The notes under the pieces: generated by a model | Database searches by the model: none | What the model was told of the DNA's origin: nothing | What the model saw: the letters and a program-made list of their open reading frames with translations, nothing else | Translations under genes and position numbers: made by a program | From: Methanobrevibacter sp. | GTDB lineage: Archaea; Methanobacteriota; Methanobacteria; Methanobacteriales; Methanobacteriaceae | Assembly: GCF_015062935.1 (NCBI RefSeq) | Contig: NZ_SUTM01000009.1 | Span: forward strand, 1 to 64,000 | Reading direction: 5' to 3' | Length of the DNA: 64,000 nt | Part shown: one piece after another, positions 5,665 to 56,719 of the stretch | Position numbering within the stretch: the first letter of the stretch is position 1 | Layout of the letters: each line of letters begins with the position of its first letter

Positions 5665-6657
5665 TTATAAAGTTACACCCATTTCTAATTGTTCAGTTAA
5701 TTCTTTGTATCTGTTACGAATAGTTACTTCAGTTACACCTGCAATATCTGCAACATCTCTTTGTGTTTTTCTCTCACCGAGTAAAACTGATGCAATGTAT
5801 AATGCCGCTGCAGCAACACCAGTAGGACCTCTACCTGAAGTCAATCCTTTTTCCATTGCTTTTTCAATGATTTCAATAGCTTTAGATTGAGCTTCACCTG
5901 AAAGACCTAGTTCAGAAGCAAATCTTGGAACATAATCCACTGGTGAAGTTGGAGGTAATTTAATATTCAATTCACGAGTTAAGAATCTGTAAGTACGACC
6001 TACCTCTTTTTTAGTAACTCTTGACACTTCAGCGATTTCATCTAAAGTACGTGGCACATTACAACGTCTACATGCTGCATACAGTGATGCTGCAACTACT
6101 CCTTCAATACTTCTTCCTCTGATTAATTTATTATCAACTGCACTTCTGTAAACTACAGATGCAGCTTCCCTAACACTTCTTGGAAGACCTAATCTTGAGG
6201 AGTCACGGTCAAGTTCACTTAATGCAAACGCTAAGTTTCTTTCAGTTGCGCCGGAAATCCTGATTTTTCTTTGCCATTTCCTTAATCTGTACCATTGAGC
6301 CCTGTTTCTTGCAGGAATATCACGACCATAGATATCTTTATTTCTCCAATCAATCATTGTGGATAAACCTTTATCGTGAATGGTGTATGTAATTGGAGCT
6401 CCTACCCTTGTACGTTTATCTCTTTGTTCATGGTCAAATGCTCTCCATTCAGGACCCATATCAACAAGATTTTCATCAATAACTAATCCGCATCTTGCAC
6501 ATACTACTTCTGCCCTTTCATAGTCACCAATTAATTCAGTAGAACCACATTCAGGACATACGGTTTGTTTGTCTTGAGCATATTTATCATCTTGTGCATC
6601 AGCTGTTCTTGTTCTTCTGCGTCCTCTTTTTGGTATTTCATCTACTTTTTGTGTCGT
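5665..6657 (-). CDS. tfb: Transcription initiation factor TFB (TFIIB homologue), start codon unusual
   Basis: TFB bridges TBP-bound promoter DNA and archaeal RNA polymerase. The N-terminal zinc ribbon (CPECGS, then CARCG) lies upstream of the first in-frame ATG (6459), followed by the B-reader/linker and two cyclin-like repeats ([18 protein letters not shown] and the second after [10 protein letters not shown]). The recognition helix near the C-terminus includes [15 protein letters not shown]. The frame is open up to a TAG at 6676-6678, but it contains no ATG, GTG or TTG between there and 6459. The end given here (ACG 6657-6655) is 7 bases from the strong AAGGAGG at 6665-6671 and is only a best guess. 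The upstream gene is gar1, whose last codons overlap this region. Confidence 0.88.
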
Positions 6658-41964: not shown

Positions 41965-42144
41965 TCAAAAATATTTTTCCAAAATTTCAAGTTCCCTGTT
42001 AAATTCTTTAACCTCCTTTGATGCAATTTCATCACTTAAATCACTGACATAATTATTGTACATATAGATTGCCAGCAATACTACAACAATTATGCCTCCG
42101 AAGAGCAAAATGAATTCTGCGGAAGCCTGACCTTTGTTATCCAT
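41965..42144 (-). CDS. Class III signal peptide (type IV pilin-like) protein, 59 residues
   Basis: The 59 residues begin MDNKGQASAEFILLFGGI. The short charged leader, the GQ-x-S-x-E-x-x-x-L pattern and the following hydrophobic helix (about 11-30) match archaeal class III signal peptides cut by an EppA-type peptidase. The mature protein would be a mini-pilin with a charged tail (about 30-59). It follows tadC with a 1-base overlap (TAATG), so pilus assembly and pilin are coupled. Confidence 0.8.
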   Translation of the reverse strand: MDNKGQASAEFILLFGGIIVVVLLAIYMYNNYVSDLSDEIASKEVKEFNRELEILEKYF

Positions 42145-43070
42145 TAAAATCCCCCCATAAGAATTTCTGCACCGAATGTGGAAATGATATAAAAAATTCC
42201 AAATGATGCTGCAAGCAATGGCAGAGAGAACTTGAATCCCTTTTTAATATCACCATACATTATAATACTGATTATGAAACCAACTAAAAGGGAATGAATA
42301 ATCAGATAAATTTCCCCCGCTATCGGAGCAGTTAGAATAATTTCCGAATCCATCCCATAGTTCTGCATGAAATCAGAATAGACACCAACCATACCAATCG
42401 CAAATGGAGTTGCAATAATTGCTGAGATAATCAGAAACATTACCGACATCATTACAGCAGACTTTCTCTCCCTTTTAAGTGCCATCAAATCCCTTAAGTC
42501 GTCAGAAACATCCAGCAATACTGTTGAAATACTTGATCCGCTTTTACGACCATCCAAAATAATTGCAAAAATTCTCTCCAATTCCTTGGATTTCAATCTT
42601 TTGCTCATTGCACGCCATGCCTCATCAAAATTGCGACCCATTCTAATTTCAATGATTGTTCTACGCATTTCATCGTACAATGGCCCACTTCCGTACTGCG
42701 ACATATCCTCCATTGCGTTTTCGAAACTCAATCCAACCTGGAGCATGCTTGAAAGCTGCCTTAAAAAGTCAGGTGCTGTTTTTTCAATTTCCTGCGCTCG
42801 TCTTTCCTGCTGGACAATAACATATGTTAAAAGTCCCGGAATAATGAAAAAGGGCAATATCAACACGGATAACGGCAAGTTGAAAATCATTATTGTTAAT
42901 GCCAAAGCAATTTCCAGTGTTAAAATGAAAATCATAATTATTGCCAAAACATTACTTGCTTCAGTAAAAATAGCCCCACTCAGCAAAAATTCCTGTAATT
43001 TTGATAAATATTTTTCTGGAACATTATTGTCTAAAAATACTGATAAATCATTGATTAATTTGAATTTCAT
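42144..43070 (-). CDS. tadC: TadC-like type II/IV secretion membrane protein (T2SSF domain)
   Basis: This 308-residue protein has an N-terminal cytoplasmic part and membrane helices near 50, 70, 205, 245 and 285. The T2SSF domain has the typical QLSSMLQVGLSFENAMEDMS (about 110-129) and IFAIILDGRKSGSSISTVL (about 168-186). It is the membrane platform of a type IV pilus/Tad-like system; no assembly ATPase gene is in this window. Its 5' part and upstream region are duplicated at 44856-45330. Confidence 0.88.
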   Translation of the reverse strand: MKFKLINDLSVFLDNNVPEKYLSKLQEFLLSGAIFTEASNVLAIIMIFILTLEIALALTIMIFNLPLSVLILPFFIIPGLLTYVIVQQERRAQEIEKTAPDFLRQLSSMLQVGLSFENAMEDMSQYGSGPLYDEMRRTIIEIRMGRNFDEAWRAMSKRLKSKELERIFAIILDGRKSGSSISTVLLDVSDDLRDLMALKRERKSAVMMSVMFLIISAIIATPFAIGMVGVYSDFMQNYGMDSEIILTAPIAGEIYLIIHSLLVGFIISIIMYGDIKKGFKFSLPLLAASFGIFYIISTFGAEILMGGF

Positions 43071-44855: not shown

Positions 44856-45272
44856 TTAACTCATTACATCATACAATGGCCCACTTCCGTACTGCGACAT
44901 GTCCTCCATTGCGTTTTCGAAACTGAGTCCCACCTGCAGCATGCTTGACAATTGCCTTAAAAAGTCCGGAGCAGTTTTTTCAATTTCCTGCGCTCTTTTT
45001 TCCTGCTGAACAACAACATATGTGAAAAGACCCGGAATTATGAAAAAGGGCAATATTAATACAGATAATGGCAAGTTAAAAACAGTTATTGTTAATGTCA
45101 AAGCAATTTCGAATATTACAATAACAATTATGAGAATAGCTAAAACTTTACTTGCATCTGTAAAAATAGCTCCACTCAGCAAAAATTCCTGTAATTTAGA
45201 TAAATATTTTTCAGGAATATTATTGTCTAAAAATACTATTAAATTATCAAATAATTTGAATTTCATAAACAA
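44856..45272 (-). pseudogene. Truncated duplicate of tadC (N-terminal 138 residues)
   Basis: The first about 135 residues match the tadC product at 42144-43070 closely (over 80 percent identical by eye), up to QYGSGPLYD, and then it ends in VMS. Only the cytoplasmic entry helix, the first membrane region and the start of the T2SSF domain remain, so it cannot work as an intact platform. The region upstream of the start is similar too (TATAAAGT... and CAATTTTA), so the promoter was duplicated. The ORF is still in frame and could be expressed. Confidence 0.7.
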
Positions 45273-48176: not shown

Positions 48177-48476
48177 ATGGACATTACAAAAAATTATAAT
48201 GGAAAAGAATTGACAATTAAAGTTGGAGATCGTATTGATACTGTAACCGCACCAGATTTTGAAAATGAAATACTTGACGAAATGGGTAAATTCGATTCAT
48301 TGATTATTGATTTTTCCAACCTAGAATACATTTCAAGTGCAGGATTGCGTGTTTTAATTGCAACACAAAAGAAATTAAAACCTGAAAACATTCCAATGAC
48401 TATCAAAAAGGTTAATGACACAATTAATGAAATATTTAAAATGTCCGGGTTTGATAAAATATTAGAGATAGAATGA
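48177..48476 (+). CDS. STAS-domain anti-sigma factor antagonist-like protein (RsbV/SpoIIAA type)
   Basis: This 99-residue single STAS domain has beta strands and helices in the usual order. The phosphorylation region is YISSAGLRVL (51-60), where Ser53 or Ser54 matches the Ser that the RsbW kinase modifies. ATG 48177 follows AGTGATTCAA; GTG 48168 is an alternative. Its stop overlaps the next start (ATGA), so it is coupled to the kinase gene. Confidence 0.88.
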   Translation: MDITKNYNGKELTIKVGDRIDTVTAPDFENEILDEMGKFDSLIIDFSNLEYISSAGLRVLIATQKKLKPENIPMTIKKVNDTINEIFKMSGFDKILEIE

Positions 48477-48847
48477 ACTCCATTTCATTAAAACCAGAAT
48501 TAAAAGAGTTATACACTTTAAATGAGTTTATTTCAAATGAACTCGAAGAAGAAAATTTTCAAGTCAGTCTAATTGTTGAAGAGATATTCGTCAATATTGT
48601 CAAATACTCAAAAACTGATTTCATCAAAGTTAATGTTGAATTTAAAAAACCAACATTAACAATGGAATTTATTGACAATGGAATTGAATTTAATCCTCTT
48701 TTAAAAGAAAATCCACAACTCCCCGAAAACATTGATGAAGCAGAAATTGGAGGGTTAGGGATTATGTTAACAAAAGAAATCTCAGATGAATTAAACTACA
48801 AATACGTGAATAACGAAAATCATTTGAAAATTGTTAAAAATGTATAA
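48473..48847 (+). CDS. RsbW/SpoIIAB-like serine kinase (GHKL ATPase)
   Basis: This 124-residue GHKL-fold ATPase has the N-box VEEIFVNIVKYSK (35-47; Glu36/37 and Asn41), the G1 box EFIDNGIEF (D68-G70) and the G2 box IGGLGIML (92-99). It should phosphorylate the STAS partner encoded just upstream, with which it shares a 4-base overlap. In bacteria it binds a sigma factor; archaea have none, so the target here must be different. Confidence 0.88.
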   Translation: MNSISLKPELKELYTLNEFISNELEEENFQVSLIVEEIFVNIVKYSKTDFIKVNVEFKKPTLTMEFIDNGIEFNPLLKENPQLPENIDEAEIGGLGIMLTKEISDELNYKYVNNENHLKIVKNV

Positions 48848-49147
48848 TAATTCATAAGATTCACAATTACATTTTAAATCCCCAAACAATACTCCAAATC
48901 ACTCAAACAAAGAGTACCTGCCCCCAAATATTAGGTATTGTATCGCCTAATACTAAAATCACCATTAAAAACAGATAACCATAATAATCTATTTTTTAAC
49001 TAAAATAACAGACATAAATAAAACAAACTAATTAAAATGAAATTCCAAACAATATTAAATTTATCTAATATCTGAATCAATACACCTTGTAAAAATTAGC
49101 TAAAAATGTTAAATTTAATATAACAATAAATTAAATAAATAACCATA
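48848..49147. other. 300-base gap between the kinase and phosphatase genes, with an inverted repeat
   Basis: No protein frame is evident. An inverted repeat TATTAGG (48929-48935) and CCTAATA (48946-48952) with a 10-base spacer stands out. It could end the STAS-kinase transcript or bind a regulator of the phosphatase genes. AT-rich TATA-like DNA lies just before the next start. Confidence 0.5.
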
Positions 49148-51088
49148 ATGTTCAAAGATAGAAATATTAAAAGATTGTTTACTAATAAAAAATTCATTTT
49201 TATATTCTCATTTTGCGTGGAACTTATATTCTTTTATTTTTTCGAACATCAAATGATAACAGGCGAATATTTATTAGGAGATTTATGGATTTCACCTATC
49301 TTTGGACTGATGTTCGGACCATATGGGGCATTAGGTCAGGCATTAGCCACATTGGTTGGAGAACTTTACCAGGGCCTGCCGCCTATAGAAAGTTTTATTG
49401 ATTTTTCAATAATGTTTTTCATTTCCATTTTTACATACAAACTATGGTACACTACATTTAAAAGACACAAAATAACTACACCTAGATTTGACTCCATTTA
49501 CAATGTCTTAAAATTCATAGCCATAATTGGAATAATGGCTATTGTATATTGGATTCTGATAAATATTTCATTATTGGCAACACCATATATGAAACTGGCG
49601 TATCCTCTATCCGGAAACATAACAAGAATCGCTTACATAGTCAATATATTTACATTCTCCATAATATTTGGACTTATACTCATCAGCAGTTTTAATATCC
49701 TTAAAATTCCATTACAGGCCCCGAAAAAATTTGATTCACCAATAAATATTCCATATAAATACTATGTAATAATCGCTTTAATTTCAGGAACCTATTTGCT
49801 TCTTGACAGATTATCAATTATACACAATACATATCTAAACAACATTTTTTTCATGATATGTATAATTTTTATAATATTATTCTGTTTAAACCGACGAGAT
49901 GAAACTATTGAGGTAGTAACCCTCAATTATTCAATTATTGAAGAAATAATATTAATATTTATGTTAATTTTGAGTATTACTCTGATTTTTAATTACAGTA
50001 ATTTTAAAAACATCATAAATTTTATTTTCCCATATGTAAATTCTGACTTTTTGCTAATGATTATCCTTGCAATCTCAAGCATTGTCGTCATATTACTTTC
50101 AATTCTCCATATTTACTATGTTGACCGAAGCATTACACACCCTATTTATCAATTGATTGATTCAACAAAAGAATATCAGGAACATGAAAAAGAAAATAAG
50201 AAGGATTTTAAACTCGACAAATATATAAAACCTGACGATGACATTGGAATGCTTGTTAAATCATTCATGAAATTGAAAACACTTATAAACGAAAATCTGA
50301 ATGATCTTGAAACCACAACCGCAGAAAAAGAGAGAATTGAAACCGAACTGAATATTGCAAGCAATATTCAAACCAGCATGCTTCCAAAAGATTTTAATGA
50401 ATTTTCCAATAACAAGCCATTTGAAATACATGGATTCATGAGCGCCGCAAAAGAAGTTGGCGGAGACTTCTATGACTTTTTTAATACTGATAAAAATTGC
50501 ATCAATTTTGTTATCGGAGACGTAAGCGGTAAAGGAATGCCCGCAACATTATTTATGGTAAAAACTATGCATTTAATCAGAAACAAATCTGAATTTAGGG
50601 ACAAACTCTCACAAGTATATGAAGACGTTAATAATGCTGCATGTGAAAGAAATGAAGAAAACCTATTCATCACATCATGGATTGGAAAATTAGATCTAGA
50701 TAAAGGGAAACTAACCTATGTCAATGCAGGACATAACCCTCCATTAATAAAACAGAACAATGAAGAATTTGAATATCTGAATTCCTCTGCAAATTTAGTT
50801 CTTGGATTGATGGAAGGAATGCCCTATGAAGAATATGAATTGAATTTAAATTATGGCGACATGATATTCTTATATACTGATGGATTGACTGAAGCTAATG
50901 ACAATTATAAAGAATTTTATGGAGAAGAACGTTTAAAAGCAATACTTAATAAACATAAAGATGAAAAGTTAAGTGAAATCATTAATGAAATAATTAAGGA
51001 TTTAAGTAAGTTCTGTAATAACCAAGAGCAGTTTGATGATATTACAATGCTTCTTTTAAGGTATACCGGAGGTGAAGGTGATGATTAA
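49148..51088 (+). CDS. Membrane RsbU/SpoIIE-type PP2C phosphatase with HAMP domain
   Basis: This is a 646-residue sensor phosphatase. The N-terminal part (1 to about 320) has eight or more helices, then comes a HAMP-like linker (about 325-385) ending in coiled coil. A PP2C/SpoIIE domain (about 405-646) follows with GGDFYDFF (near 437), FVIGDVSGKGMPATLF (near 454), YVNAGHNPPLI, FLYTDGLTEAND (near 574) and FDDITMLLLR (near 629). It would remove phosphate from the STAS protein in response to a membrane signal. No Shine-Dalgarno is visible. The next phosphatase gene overlaps its 3' end. Confidence 0.92.
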   Translation: MFKDRNIKRLFTNKKFIFIFSFCVELIFFYFFEHQMITGEYLLGDLWISPIFGLMFGPYGALGQALATLVGELYQGLPPIESFIDFSIMFFISIFTYKLWYTTFKRHKITTPRFDSIYNVLKFIAIIGIMAIVYWILINISLLATPYMKLAYPLSGNITRIAYIVNIFTFSIIFGLILISSFNILKIPLQAPKKFDSPINIPYKYYVIIALISGTYLLLDRLSIIHNTYLNNIFFMICIIFIILFCLNRRDETIEVVTLNYSIIEEIILIFMLILSITLIFNYSNFKNIINFIFPYVNSDFLLMIILAISSIVVILLSILHIYYVDRSITHPIYQLIDSTKEYQEHEKENKKDFKLDKYIKPDDDIGMLVKSFMKLKTLINENLNDLETTTAEKERIETELNIASNIQTSMLPKDFNEFSNNKPFEIHGFMSAAKEVGGDFYDFFNTDKNCINFVIGDVSGKGMPATLFMVKTMHLIRNKSEFRDKLSQVYEDVNNAACERNEENLFITSWIGKLDLDKGKLTYVNAGHNPPLIKQNNEEFEYLNSSANLVLGLMEGMPYEEYELNLNYGDMIFLYTDGLTEANDNYKEFYGEERLKAILNKHKDEKLSEIINEIIKDLSKFCNNQEQFDDITMLLLRYTGGEGDD

Positions 51089-52943
51089 TAGGATTTTCAA
51101 ATCCCGAAAAGGAATCTTTTTATTTTCCATGGTTCTGACCATTATTGGGATATCAATCGTGAATGCATTTAATTATCCCATTCCCATAGAATATACTTTT
51201 ATTCCAGTGTTAAGCATATTCCTTGGCCCATATGCTGTTTTAGGATTTACATTAACAGAAATCGCATTTGAGATTATTTATTTCCAAACAACAGACATCC
51301 CAATTATACTATTCAATGCGGCAATGACATTTATTTTTGGAATACTGCCTTGGAAACTTTGGTATTCCATCCTAAATAATAATGGGCATGATGTCCCTAA
51401 CATAAATCGAGCAATTAATTTTATCAAGTTATTAATTATAACTGTTATAGTCTATTTATTTTCATTTGGAGTTTTATACAATGAATTGACAATCAATGAG
51501 AGCATAATTTCAGTCTATTTCACAATTATTCTTTCATTCATATTAACAATCTTTGCAATACCTCTTCTCCACTACGCCAAAATACCTTGTTATTCACCAA
51601 AAAAACAAATTAAAAGATTAATGCCCGATAAAGCATATTACATATTTTTATTGGTCCCAGTGATTATCTTCGCATATTCATATATATTCTATGAACCCAT
51701 TAATTTGACTTTAACAATACTATCCACATTATTTTTAGCCATATTTTTAATTAAACCTTATGACGAAGAGGTTTTTGCAATATCCAATACTGTAAAACCA
51801 AACACATTTTATAAGATATGCGTTTCAATATTCATAGTCATTTTAATTTTAACCCTACTTATCACAACTTCACTGAATCATATTACTTATATTGAAAGCA
51901 ACGTGGAAATCGACCCTTTTATAAGTTACCTATTCGATTTAGGAAATATACTCCTCCCATTTTTAATTCCAATGATTATTTATATATTATTTTTAGAAAA
52001 AAGAGTATTAAATCCTATTAAAAAATTTTCAGAATTTTTATCTGCAGATATAGAAGATTATGATGATATTGAGAAGTTAAAAAAGAATTTGAATACAATA
52101 ACCGTTAATAATGAAATAAAAATATTATCAGATTCATTGATAAAAATGGAAGGAGATTTGATTAGCTACAGTGAAAATTTAGTCAAAGTCACAAGTGAAA
52201 AAGAAAAATATGAAACAGAACTCAAATTAGCCAGGGAAATTCAATATTCAATGATTCCAACTGATTTTGAAGAATTCTGTGAAAATGAGAATTTTTCCGT
52301 TTGGGGGATGATGAAAGCCGCCCGTGAAGTGGGAGGAGATTTCTATGATTACTTTAAAATCGATGATGAAAACATCGGATTTGTCATTGGAGACGTGAGC
52401 GGAAAAGGAATAACTGCAGCATTGATTATGGCTAAAGCCATGACTCTGATTCAGGATTATGTAACCCATTACAAAGATCTCTCAAAAGCAGTTTATGATG
52501 TAAATAATAAACTTTGCGAAGGTAATGAAGAGTATCTTTTTGTCACAAGCTGGCTTGGAAAACTCAATATCAAAACAGGAAAACTGACATTTATCAATGC
52601 AGGACATAACCCTCCATTAATTAAACAAAATAATGGAAACTTCGAGTATTTGAAAACAGAACCTGAATTGGTTCTAGCATGCATGGAAGAAATGCCCTAT
52701 AAAACTGAAACAATACAAATAAATCCCGGAGATGCACTATTCTTATACACAGACGGAGTGACAGAAGCTAATGATGACTATAATGGATTTTATGGTGATG
52801 AAAGACTCCAAAATATATTGAATAAACATAAAGATGACGATTTAAAAACCATTATAGAATCAATTGATGATGATATTGGCGAATTCTGCAGTCATCATGC
52901 TCAATTCGACGATACCACCATGTTCATTATTAAAAGAAAATGA
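51081..52943 (+). CDS. Second membrane RsbU/SpoIIE-type PP2C phosphatase
   Basis: This 620-residue protein is a paralogue of its upstream neighbour: N-terminal membrane domain, linker and PP2C domain with GGDFYDYF (near 418), FVIGDVSGKGITAALI, FINAGHNPPLI, FLYTDGVTEAND (near 553) and FDDTTMFII (near 609). The membrane parts differ much more than the catalytic parts, so the two probably sense different cues but act on the same STAS protein. ATG 51081 sits in GGAGGTGAAGGTGATG and overlaps the upstream stop by 8 bases. Confidence 0.92.
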   Translation: MINRIFKSRKGIFLFSMVLTIIGISIVNAFNYPIPIEYTFIPVLSIFLGPYAVLGFTLTEIAFEIIYFQTTDIPIILFNAAMTFIFGILPWKLWYSILNNNGHDVPNINRAINFIKLLIITVIVYLFSFGVLYNELTINESIISVYFTIILSFILTIFAIPLLHYAKIPCYSPKKQIKRLMPDKAYYIFLLVPVIIFAYSYIFYEPINLTLTILSTLFLAIFLIKPYDEEVFAISNTVKPNTFYKICVSIFIVILILTLLITTSLNHITYIESNVEIDPFISYLFDLGNILLPFLIPMIIYILFLEKRVLNPIKKFSEFLSADIEDYDDIEKLKKNLNTITVNNEIKILSDSLIKMEGDLISYSENLVKVTSEKEKYETELKLAREIQYSMIPTDFEEFCENENFSVWGMMKAAREVGGDFYDYFKIDDENIGFVIGDVSGKGITAALIMAKAMTLIQDYVTHYKDLSKAVYDVNNKLCEGNEEYLFVTSWLGKLNIKTGKLTFINAGHNPPLIKQNNGNFEYLKTEPELVLACMEEMPYKTETIQINPGDALFLYTDGVTEANDDYNGFYGDERLQNILNKHKDDDLKTIIESIDDDIGEFCSHHAQFDDTTMFIIKRK

Positions 52944-53960
52944 TTAATCAATTACCAATGGTAAATCACCAATCACATTACCTTTTCTTGATATCTCAAT
53001 GGTATCTTCCAGACGCACTCCAAATTCACCTTCCAAATAGATTCCTGGCTCTACTGTAATAACCATCCCTTCTTCTATTACTGTATCATCACGAAGAGAG
53101 AATCCTGGAGTTTCATGAATATCAAGTCCCAAACTATGGCCTGTGGAATGTATGAATTTATCACCATAACCATATTCTGAAATAACATCACGTGCAACTT
53201 TATCTATTTCACAACATTTAAGACCCGGTTTTATTGCTTTTATTGCCTTGTCATGTGCTTCGGCAACAATATCCCATATTTCCTGCTGGCGTTCAGTATA
53301 AACCATTGTACGGGTATTGTCAGAACAGTACCCTTCAAAAATAGCTCCCCAATCAATCAATATCGGTTGGTCCAGTTTTTTAGCTTCAGGAATTGCATGA
53401 GGCAAACTTGAGGAAGCGCCACTTGTAACTATTGTGTCAAATGATTCCTTTGAAGCTCCATTTTCAATCATATACCTGACCAAATCAAAAGCAACTTCCT
53501 TTTCGGTGTTAGGGTTGTTCAAGATATCCAACTGCAAGAATGATTTTTGAGCAATTTCAGTTGCTTTAGCAATCTTTTCAATTTCATCGGGAGTTTTAAT
53601 CATACGCTGCTTGTCAATGTATGTTTTAGCATCTATTTTAAAGTCATCTCTGAAACGAACAAAAGTACTGAAAGGAAGTGTCGGCTCGATAGCTAAACTT
53701 TTTATTCCATCCTCTTTCAGCTCTTTAATCATAATGTCATATGATTCATACTCTTTTACTTCAATTGAAGATGTGTTTTTGGCCAATTCCATATCCATTC
53801 CTGAAGCATAGATAATTGGATTGTCCTTAATCACGCAAAATGCAAAACTGGTTGGTTTATATCCTGATATATATTCCACATTTGTAAATCCGGTCAATAA
53901 ATAAGCTTGAAAATCATCTTTTTTTAAATCTTTTAAAATGTTATCAATATGTAAGTCCAT
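52944..53960 (-). CDS. M24-family Xaa-Pro aminopeptidase (PepQ-like)
   Basis: This 338-residue protein has a creatinase-like N-terminal domain (1-120) and a pita-bread catalytic domain. The metal-binding residues are in DWGAIFEGYCSDNTR, STGHSLGLDIHE, TVEPGIY and GVRLEDT. It removes N-terminal residues ahead of proline, or splits Xaa-Pro dipeptides, in the cytoplasm. It is convergent with the phosphatase pair and ends on the base after it. Confidence 0.92.
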   Translation of the reverse strand: MDLHIDNILKDLKKDDFQAYLLTGFTNVEYISGYKPTSFAFCVIKDNPIIYASGMDMELAKNTSSIEVKEYESYDIMIKELKEDGIKSLAIEPTLPFSTFVRFRDDFKIDAKTYIDKQRMIKTPDEIEKIAKATEIAQKSFLQLDILNNPNTEKEVAFDLVRYMIENGASKESFDTIVTSGASSSLPHAIPEAKKLDQPILIDWGAIFEGYCSDNTRTMVYTERQQEIWDIVAEAHDKAIKAIKPGLKCCEIDKVARDVISEYGYGDKFIHSTGHSLGLDIHETPGFSLRDDTVIEEGMVITVEPGIYLEGEFGVRLEDTIEISRKGNVIGDLPLVID

Positions 53961-54222
53961 GTTAAATAATTTAGAAAAAGCATTATAAAAAAATTAGTAT
54001 GAAAAAGAAAAAGACAAATAACTTCACGGATTACATTAACAGTTGTTTTTATAGTATCTTTAATATACGTCACTTTAAAATAGGATTTAAGTTTATTAAT
54101 GATTTTTTAGCTAAATCAAATATTTATTTAACCTGACTTAATGGAAATTAAAACTATTGATTTTTAATTTATACCCCTTAAAAAGATAATTATATTAAAC
54201 TCAAAATAGATATTTTAACATT

Positions 54223-54864
54223 ATGTTTAAATTTACAAGTAGTGAAATACGAGATTTGATAATTGCATTTATCATCATTTCCCTTTGTTTTTCAATTGCT
54301 AACGCTGGAAGAGATGCAAATGCAGTCTTATCCATATTGCCAATAGTCATGGTAGGTGTAGGTGCCGGTTTCATTCTACACGAACTTGGACATAAATTCG
54401 TGTCCATGAAATATGGATACTGGGCAGAATTCAAATTATGGCCACAGGGATTAATATTTGCACTTATCACATCATTTTTCGGATTTGTATTTGCTGCACC
54501 TGGTGCAGTTTACACATATGCAAATTATATGACTGATGAAATCAACGGTAAAATATCAATTGCAGGACCTATTGTCAACATTATACTAGCATTGGTCTTT
54601 TTAGGAATATCTACAGCTATTTATCCTTCTGCATTTTATTCCGGAACTTCAGCATTAATATTTATTATCTGCTCCGTAGGATATTCAATCAACAGTTTCC
54701 TTGCTGTTTTCAATTTATTGCCTATCGGAAACCTGGACGGATCAAAAGTATTGGCCTGGAATTTTGGAATCTGGATTGTTACAATCGCAATTGCGGCAAT
54801 ATTAACATTTATGTCAATGACAATGGGTGTTGAAAATATAGTTAGAATGATTTTAGGATTTTAA
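54223..54864 (+). CDS. M50 family site-2-type membrane metalloprotease
   Basis: This 213-residue protein has about six helices. The zinc site HELGH is at residues 53-57 inside the second helix, and the third ligand region is LPIGNLDGSKVLAW (near 166-179). It lacks PDZ or CBS domains. The gene ends 2 bases before ycaO, so it belongs to the same operon as the McrA-thioamidation genes. The substrate is unknown. The start has no Shine-Dalgarno. Confidence 0.88.
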   Translation: MFKFTSSEIRDLIIAFIIISLCFSIANAGRDANAVLSILPIVMVGVGAGFILHELGHKFVSMKYGYWAEFKLWPQGLIFALITSFFGFVFAAPGAVYTYANYMTDEINGKISIAGPIVNIILALVFLGISTAIYPSAFYSGTSALIFIICSVGYSINSFLAVFNLLPIGNLDGSKVLAWNFGIWIVTIAIAAILTFMSMTMGVENIVRMILGF

Positions 54865-54866
54865 AA

Positions 54867-56060
54867 ATGAGCGAAAAAATAACATACTTCAAGGGAACTC
54901 ACAGAGTAATAGCTCCAAAAAGGACTATTGAGATTAACGAAGACAAACTTAAAACAGCAGGAATAACCCGTATTGCGGACATTACCGATTTGGATAGAAT
55001 TGGCCTTCCTATTTATACTGCCATCAGACCTACCGCTGAAGAGAGTGGAGTCAGTATTTATGGTGGAAAAGGAATAACAAAAGACCATGCAAAGGCATCT
55101 GCAATGATGGAAGGTTTTGAAAGGTATTCTGCTGAAAGGCAAAGCAGTGATGAAAGCATCATCTCAAATCTAAATGATATTGACAACAATATCGACCCAA
55201 AATCTCTGAATTTACCGAAAGACCTTGAAAGAGTTGACATTAACGATTGGGATTTGGAGTGGAGCATTGCACGTGACATTATTTCCGAAAAAGATTATTA
55301 TATTCCAACAAATGCCGTTTATCATCCATACAATCCCAAAGATAATGCAAAAACCCTATTCAAATCAAATACCAATGGACTTGCTTCCGGAAACATTTTG
55401 GAAGAAGCTATATTGCACGGAATGTTTGAAGTTATAGAAAGGGATGCATGGAGCATTTTTGAGTTAACCCATAAAAATTACTCACAAATCGATTTGGATT
55501 CCATTGAAAGTGATGTTATTAATGAAATTATAGAGAAATTTGAAAGTGAAGGAATCAAAATAAAATTAATGGATTTTACAGCAGACATTAACATTCCAAC
55601 AATAGCTGCTTCCGCAGACGATACAGTTACAAAGGATGCTGGATTGCTGACATTAGGTATGGGAACACACCTGGACCCTGAAGTTGCAATCCTAAGAGCA
55701 CTGACTGAAGTGGCTCAGAGCAGAGCAACACAAATAAACGGTGCCCGGGAAGATACTGTCAGAGCAGATTTCGCCCGTGAAGCCGGTTACGAACGTATGA
55801 AAAGAATCAATAAATACTACTTTAAACAGGAAGATGAGCAAATTTCACTTTCAGACATTGAAAACAAAAGTACCCATTCCATTACAGAGGATATTGAAAT
55901 CGTTAAGAATGAATTAATGGCCAATGACATTGAAAAAATATTATATGTGGACTTAACAAGACCTGAAATTGATGTTAGTGTTGTTCGTGTAATTATCCCT
56001 GAAATGGAAATGTATGCAATTGATCAAAGCCGTGCAGGCTATAGATTCTTAAAAGTCTGA
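54867..56060 (+). CDS. ycaO: YcaO-related McrA-glycine thioamidation protein
   Basis: YcaO uses ATP to activate the peptide backbone; in methanogens it converts a glycine of McrA to thioglycine with TfuA as partner. The 397-residue protein has [14 protein letters not shown] (about 72-85) and [12 protein letters not shown] (about 188-199) with the ATP/Mg-binding Glu residues. [20 protein letters not shown] (about 273-292) is also conserved. The start follows TTTTAAAA, 2 bases after the M50 stop. Confidence 0.93.
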
Positions 56061-56065
56061 TTAAT

Positions 56066-56719
56066 ATGGTTAAAATTATAATATATACTGGATTATCACT
56101 CCCATTTGATGAAGCAAAAGAAATTTTGGACAGTGCAGATGGCATTGAAGTAATTTATAAAAGGCCAATCAAAAGAGGAGATTTGTCCATAGCTCTAAAA
56201 GAAAATCCAGATATTATCGGAATAATTGATGGAGTATTCCACCAAAACTCTGCAGTAGGACATAAAGAAATTCTCAATGTCATCAAGAATGGAGTTAAAG
56301 TCTACGGGGCTTCAAGCATGGGTGCACTTAGGGCATCTGAGCTCGACACATTAGGAATGACTGGAATAGGATATGTTTACAATCAGTATGCAAGCGGTGA
56401 AGTTGATTCTGATGATGACGTTGCAGTGATGCTTGACTCAGAAACCCTGGAAGCACTTTCCGAGCCTTTAATTAACATGAAATATGTTTTTACAAATGCT
56501 GTTAAAGAGAATATAATAACCAACGATGAAAAAGACGAGCTTCTAAGCATTGCTAAAAAAACATTCTATCCTAAAAGAAATTATGCTCAGACATTAGCAC
56601 AATCAAGTTTAGACAATGATACAAAAGGAATTTTGATTAATTTTATTCGTGAATCAGTTGATATTAAAAAGGAAGATGCAAAAGAGCTTCTTAAAACCAT
56701 AAAACAAGATTTGCAATAA
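56066..56719 (+). CDS. tfuA: TfuA-related McrA-glycine thioamidation protein
   Basis: This 217-residue TfuA-like protein starts 5 bases after ycaO. The conserved core is IGIIDGVFHQNSAVGHKEIL (about 51-70) and VKVYGASSMGALRASEL (about 78-94). TfuA is thought to supply sulfide to, or stimulate, the YcaO reaction. The pair is the signature of methanogens that carry thioglycine in McrA. Confidence 0.93.
   Translation: MVKIIIYTGLSLPFDEAKEILDSADGIEVIYKRPIKRGDLSIALKENPDIIGIIDGVFHQNSAVGHKEILNVIKNGVKVYGASSMGALRASELDTLGMTGIGYVYNQYASGEVDSDDDVAVMLDSETLEALSEPLINMKYVFTNAVKENIITNDEKDELLSIAKKTFYPKRNYAQTLAQSSLDNDTKGILINFIRESVDIKKEDAKELLKTIKQDLQ

Follow-up and report, generated by a model that had tools for sequence, protein, structure and literature searches.

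We analysed a window of 64,000 nucleotides from Methanobrevibacter sp., whose genome (G000) is 2.5 Mb in size and 99.6% complete. Positions 48,177 to 52,943 of the window hold four genes, and the features of this region and its right flank are as follows.

48177..48476, plus strand: single-domain STAS protein of the anti-anti-sigma type, 99 aa from ATG 48177 (PF01740, 2e-14)
48473..48847, plus strand: RsbW-like GHKL serine kinase, 124 aa (PF13581, 2.7e-14)
48848..49147, no strand: AT-rich gap of about 300 bp between the STAS-kinase pair and the phosphatase pair, from reading the sequence
49148..51088, plus strand: membrane SpoIIE/RsbU-type phosphatase, pair A paralogue, 646 aa (PF07228, 2.8e-51)
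51072..52943, plus strand: membrane SpoIIE/RsbU-type phosphatase, pair B paralogue, 623 aa (PF07228, 3.2e-49)
52944..56719, no strand given: conserved right flank with M24 peptidase, M50 peptidase, YcaO and TfuA genes, in the same gene order in relatives

The mechanical open reading frame of the STAS protein begins at GTG 48168, and its coordinates are counted here from ATG 48177. The length of the pair B phosphatase is counted from GTG 51072; an in-frame ATG lies at 51081.

The STAS protein scored over the TIGR00377 cut-off (64.2 bits vs 53.45) and carries the phospho-acceptor motif SAGLR. An SxGLR motif was present in 69 of the 71 single-domain STAS proteins in the loci examined, and the PDB relatives of the window protein are SpoIIAA, RsfB and RsbV. 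The kinase has intact N, G1 and G2 boxes, which read EExxxN (E/N box), DNGIEF and GGLGI, respectively. It matched the RsbW structure 6m36 at 5e-4, and its closest named relatives are from Methanobrevibacter and Methanosphaera. All four phosphatase motifs (GGDFYD, GDVSGKG, YTDG and FDDxT) were found in both window phosphatases. In a Foldseek search, the pair A phosphatase fold matched the phosphatase domains of RssB, SiaA, SpoIIE and Rv1364c; the membrane half was predicted with low confidence, and the matches listed are to the phosphatase domain only. The preliminary description of this DNA had named a STAS protein, an RsbW-like kinase and two membrane phosphatases with intact motifs, and both the Pfam matches and the motif reading agreed. 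Judged by domains and motifs, the STAS protein, the GHKL kinase and a SpoIIE-type phosphatase make up an intact partner-switching module. The kinase would phosphorylate the STAS protein, a phosphatase would reverse this, and the STAS protein would exchange partners.

The STAS and kinase genes overlap by 4 bp and the two phosphatase genes by 17 bp. The gap of about 300 bp between them contains short, AT-rich inverted repeats. In the loci examined, the spacing between kinase and phosphatase was 10 bp or less in 48 of 61 adjoining cases. The four genes had been described as lying together; all are present, in frame and on the plus strand, but they are split into two pairs by the gap. The four-gene stretch thus looks like two gene pairs, STAS plus kinase and phosphatases A plus B.

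Neighbourhoods in relatives and the scattered cluster

A HATPase_c_2 profile search was performed on 139 genomes of the family, and 80 loci were taken, 78 of them with a free-standing kinase. The usual gene order was STAS-kinase-phosphatase, followed by a cluster of the 4'-phosphopantetheinyl transferase (PPTase) type (example PF01648, 7e-16), and a large non-ribosomal peptide synthetase (NRPS) gene typically lay divergent from STAS. Within stretches of at most about 8 kb on each side of the kinase, a PPTase was found in 44/78, an NRPS in 29/78 and either of the two in 56/78; these counts are lower bounds because many contigs stop within the stretch. The count rose to 62/78 when GH3 and MATE genes were added. 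The chance expectation for linkage to NRPS or PPTase genes was about 3%, a rough estimate from roughly four targets per 2.2-Mb genome. In the STAS and kinase trees, the window proteins grouped with members of NRPS- or PPTase-linked operons. Judged by these trees, the window STAS-kinase pair belongs to an operon of STAS, kinase, phosphatase and PPTase genes that in relatives mostly adjoins an NRPS or the transferase. At the window locus itself, neither an NRPS nor a PPTase gene was found next to the pair. The gene neighbourhood argues for a shared pathway, not for a direct target. A TetR-type regulator (L031:3767-4390) and a pair of acyltransferase and alpha/beta hydrolase genes (L030:5254-7149) also recur near STAS-kinase loci.

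We then compared the window phosphatases with those of the operon. A tree of 103 phosphatases contained an operon clade, a pair-A clade with the window gene at 49148 and a pair-B clade with the window gene at 51072. The operon clade included a phosphatase gene from another contig of the window's genome, C3. A and B stood in tandem in 21 loci with varied flanks, and in four of the pair loci (L103, L116, L119 and L121) the pair adjoins a MATE-HATPase/STAS/GH3-HATPase operon. The window phosphatases are, by this tree, an old tandem paralogue pair and not the operon's own. The same clades, with the C3 gene in the operon clade, refuted the idea of an operon phosphatase with a recent duplicate. The membrane halves of window A and B align with 27% identity across 197 aa (E 1e-6; z about 12 relative to shuffled sequences). 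Since they align, they appear to be diverged copies of one domain. Between phosphatase clades, identity was about 20% in the membrane halves vs 45% in the catalytic part. It had been suggested that different membrane sensors feed two inputs into one switch. Two inputs via A and B are plausible, but the sensors are diverged homologues.

The rest of the operon was found elsewhere in the window's genome. The window contig holds the STAS, kinase and phosphatase A/B genes, and contig C3 holds the operon-type phosphatase. Contig C7 holds a MATE-HATPase fusion (576 aa), an NRPS (2605 aa) and a divergent second STAS gene, with a PPTase about 6 kb on. The right-hand gene order of the window is common to L040, L045, L046, L048, L069 and other loci. 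Since the right flank is the same as in relatives that have the whole NRPS-linked operon, the cluster was presumably split apart in the window's lineage; it now lies on three contigs. The right flank (52944-56719) is, from this comparison, outside the switch and marks the site where relatives have the NRPS-linked operon. The module is thus not self-contained at 48177-52943 as had been thought: the operon phosphatase, transferase, NRPS, MATE fusion and second STAS gene are on other contigs. Within the flank, YcaO- and TfuA-like genes, named from sequence reading, are adjacent to each other on the plus strand (54867-56719). On the other side of the module, two closely similar genes for T2SSF-type membrane proteins lie on the minus strand (42144-43070 and 44856-45272); the second encodes only 138 aa and appears to be a shortened copy.

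The window kinase was the only HATPase_c_2 match over the cut-off in its genome and the only free-standing RsbW-like kinase detected there. Weak HATPase_c_2 hits were found in the MATE fusion and in three PAS/HisKA_2 histidine kinases. The latter three were rejected as RsbW-like kinases, two being under the HATPase_c_2 cut-off and the third having no HATPase_c_2 in Pfam. A further STAS domain (PF13466, 6e-8) lies at the C-terminus of a 423-aa protein on contig C10 (L011:478-1746, plus strand). Its carrier, considered as a SulP transporter, is a methyltransferase-like/STAS protein with a weak methyltransferase match. Contig C4 carries a second, very large NRPS (about 13800-35400), with a 7216-codon open frame and at least six condensation domains; no STAS gene was found on that contig.

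Co-occurrence with NRPS genes

The same 139 genomes were searched for Condensation (PF00668), PPTase (PF01648) and SpoIIE (PF07228) domains. The kinase set consisted of HATPase_c_2 matches over the cut-off in short frames, transcribed by hand from the matches listed. Among these matches, the kinase was present in all 47 NRPS-positive genomes of the genus (67 genomes in total) and in at least 4 of the 20 NRPS-negative ones (Fisher p 4e-12). SpoIIE domains were found in 47/47 and 5/20 genomes, respectively. The kinase was absent from 16 of the 67 genus genomes among the matches listed, and its presence tracked the NRPS genes. Because the genomes are related, an atpA DNA tree was built for 41 genus genomes. 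Of seven independent pairs on this tree, six to seven agreed with the NRPS-kinase association and none opposed it (p 0.016-0.031). These results show that the association survives phylogenetic pairing.

In the whole family, among the matches listed, 12 NRPS-positive genomes had no free-standing kinase and 9 kinase-positive genomes had no NRPS, so neither strictly requires the other. Most of the latter 9 genomes have a PPTase (G078, G090, G112 and G115) or a GH3 gene with an exporter (G060, G073 and G102). It is likely that the module is linked to NRPS or amide metabolism.

Candidate outputs of the switch

A profile search found no Sigma70_r2 domain in the window's genome (99.6% complete), and the controls were positive in 10 of 14 genomes. 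The gene content and this search together bear out the preliminary description, in which all parts of a partner switch are present although the organism lacks sigma factors. The window kinase fell below the NCBIfam equivalog cut-offs for RsbW (16.2 vs 145 bits) and SpoIIAB (16.0 vs 135). Likewise, the window proteins did not reach the equivalog models for RsbW, SpoIIAB, SpoIIAA and SpoIIE. In a genome without detectable sigma-70, an anti-sigma role of the RsbW/SpoIIAB kind, in which a cognate sigma factor is bound and inhibited, would not apply to this kinase.

We next examined proteins in which the kinase-like domain is joined to another. Pfam identified three kinds of fusion partner for the RsbW-like HATPase_c_2 domain: a MATE exporter, a GH3 amide synthetase and a SpoIIE phosphatase. 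When only the kinase domain was aligned, 78 of 80 free-standing kinases had the E/N residues together with a G2 box of the GGxG type. Of the two exceptions, one reads SGLGI and the other is a 79-aa fragment (L036) that resembles the MATE-fused domain. The kinase domain was also intact in four GH3 fusions and in the SpoIIE fusion. In the MATE-fused domains, the G2 box was found in 0 of 13, and the N-box Asn was also missing in three. The G2 count was restricted to the domain, the MATE part holding a look-alike stretch that misleads regular-expression counts on whole proteins. Since they have no G2 box, the MATE-fused domains look more suited to binding than to kinase activity. One such MATE-HATPase_c_2 fusion lies next to the NRPS in the window's genome (L025). 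A predicted structure of the MATE fusion was discarded (mean pLDDT 46). We found no report of MATE or GH3 fusions with an RsbW-like domain in the open-licence papers searched.

Gene content, motifs, linkage, co-occurrence, fusions and phylogeny are the observations on which we base a proposal for the output; from them we infer the phosphorylation reactions, which way the switch works and that the MATE domain receives STAS. The product of the cluster would be a non-ribosomal peptide, with GH3-type amide synthesis in some relatives. The kinase would phosphorylate both the window STAS protein and the STAS paralogue beside the NRPS. Upon a signal, the membrane phosphatases (the operon-type one on C3 and pair A/B in the window) would dephosphorylate STAS. 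Unphosphorylated STAS would then bind another partner, most likely the degenerate RsbW-like domain of the MATE exporter on C7. Peptide export, and perhaps synthesis, would in this way be switched post-translationally without a sigma factor. On balance, we favour this whole explanation, in which STAS and kinase are the regulatory core of a scattered specialised-metabolite cluster with the MATE domain as STAS partner. The single step in which the RsbW-like domain of the exporter receives STAS is put forward tentatively. A stronger form of the idea is possible but doubtful. Here the exporter would be the terminal partner, its dead RsbW-like domain would capture unphosphorylated STAS, and phosphorylation would gate export directly in archaea and in gut Clostridia. 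It is just as speculative that synthesis would also be gated, via the GH3-kinase fusions, without a transcription factor.

Of the outputs suggested previously, a transport protein comes close because the MATE exporter has a degenerate RsbW-like domain. For TFB, motility and chemoreceptor proteins, no linkage or co-occurrence was seen. TFB is expected in all archaea. The kinase could act on TFB or a similar general archaeal transcription factor as a global stress switch, in analogy with SigB/SigF control and in keeping with a genome that has no sigma factor, and the NRPS link would then be hitchhiking. We consider this very improbable: the kinase is missing from the 16 genus genomes noted above and follows the NRPS, and no recurrent TFB neighbour was seen among the clustered neighbours of kinase loci. 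The TFB-like gene of the window, so called from reading the sequence, is located at 5665-6459, some 42 kb from the module. A transcriptional route of another kind is unlikely but deserves more weight. The kinase or STAS would sequester a DNA-binding regulator, for example a TetR-type protein, and so control the NRPS cluster indirectly. A TetR_N protein (Pfam) recurs near about 10 of the 80 loci, so control could be transcriptional, and regulation of NRPS expression was proposed by Leahy et al. 2010 (PMC2812497). A bacterial example is a REC-RsbW protein of Vogesella that influences formation of the pigment indigoidine, possibly via transcription (PMC12826045). However, the TetR-type regulator stands at a minority of loci only, and in the sampled loci the kinase-like domain is fused to the exporter and the synthetase, not to DNA-binding proteins.

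The STAS-kinase pair and the phosphatases may also have become detached and drifted into a different function, for instance with the pair A/B signal, so that the NRPS on C7 is no longer served by them. PPTase and NRPS genes no longer stand beside the pair at the window locus, the A/B tandem occurs at many sites and usually forms a unit of its own, and C7 retains its own STAS protein. Against this, a free-standing kinase is missing from C7, which leaves the window kinase as the only RsbW-like kinase in the genome for the C7 STAS protein. Every piece is also still present and undamaged, and in the trees the window genes fall among those of NRPS operons. A drifted remnant is therefore improbable in our estimate.

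Known systems, bacterial relatives and meaning

A report on Methanomicrobiales (Anderson et al. 2009, PMC2686161) covered STAS, kinase and phosphatase genes, and noted that archaea have no sigma factors and that the target could not be read from the genome. These SpoIIAA/SpoIIAB/SpoIIE-like genes are the same three kinds together in methanogens, with the same remark on sigma factors. They belong to another order, however; that paper considered such proteins to be missing outside Methanomicrobiales and put forward no output. In M. ruminantium, Leahy et al. 2010 (PMC2812497) found that genes for serine phosphatases, an anti-sigma antagonist and an anti-sigma kinase adjoin those for NRPS, MatE and PPTase, and suggested that they are regulatory. 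The loci mru0066-0071 and mru0512-0516 of Methanobrevibacter ruminantium M1 thus have the same gene kinds as the operon studied here. The window STAS and kinase group with this type, whereas its adjoining NRPS or PPTase is missing from the window. A module of the mru0066-0071/mru0512-0516 type may control peptide synthesis or export. That report concerned individual loci in one genome; this study adds the genus-wide association on a tree, the RsbW-like fusions, the loss of the G2 box, the pair A/B phosphatases and the scattered version of the cluster. Given these two reports, neither the module nor the puzzle of its presence in organisms without sigma factors is new: archaeal modules were known in 2009, and beside NRPS genes in 2010.

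The Bacillus systems RsbU/RsbV/RsbW-SigB and SpoIIE/SpoIIAA/SpoIIAB-SigF have the same three protein kinds with the same catalytic and phospho-acceptor motifs. They differ from the window system in that its genome has no sigma factor and its proteins do not reach the equivalog models. Non-sigma outputs are also known from bacteria. In SypE/SypA and BtrU/V/W, as the sections of PMC8256260 on these systems describe them, and with the SiaA phosphatase, a kinase, a STAS protein and a phosphatase serve a non-sigma output, as is proposed here. The outputs in those sections are biofilm or secretion, and they mention no MATE/GH3-RsbW fusion. The statement that the archaeal output must be new was too strong in view of SypA and BtrV/BtrW as presented there.

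The closest non-archaeal kinases came from gut and rumen bacteria (Treponema, Ruminococcus and Lachnospiraceae), and some adjoin PPTase genes. In bacterial loci, classed by models built from archaeal proteins, NRPS-model matches were found near partner-switch genes in L162, L169 and L170, and a GH3 match in L187. By the same models, MATE-RsbW-like fusions occurred in gut Clostridia and relatives (L172, L192, L197 and L200), three of them close to STAS genes. Given this origin of the closest non-archaeal kinases, some of which have NRPS-like, PPTase or MATE-RsbW genes as neighbours, exchange of the module within the gut community is likely.

The presence of sigma-type regulators in organisms that lack sigma factors has been a puzzle since at least 2009. 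Linkage, co-occurrence and fusions narrow it to one question, whether the switch acts on peptide synthesis and export. As judged from the genomes, the best reading is a known kind of module with a new output variant, peptide synthesis and export, and with the MATE domain as the most likely receiver. If this is true, natural-product export could be gated directly by partner switching. The unknown peptides of gut methanogens, organisms of importance to rumen and human gut ecology and to methane output, would also gain a handle on their regulation.
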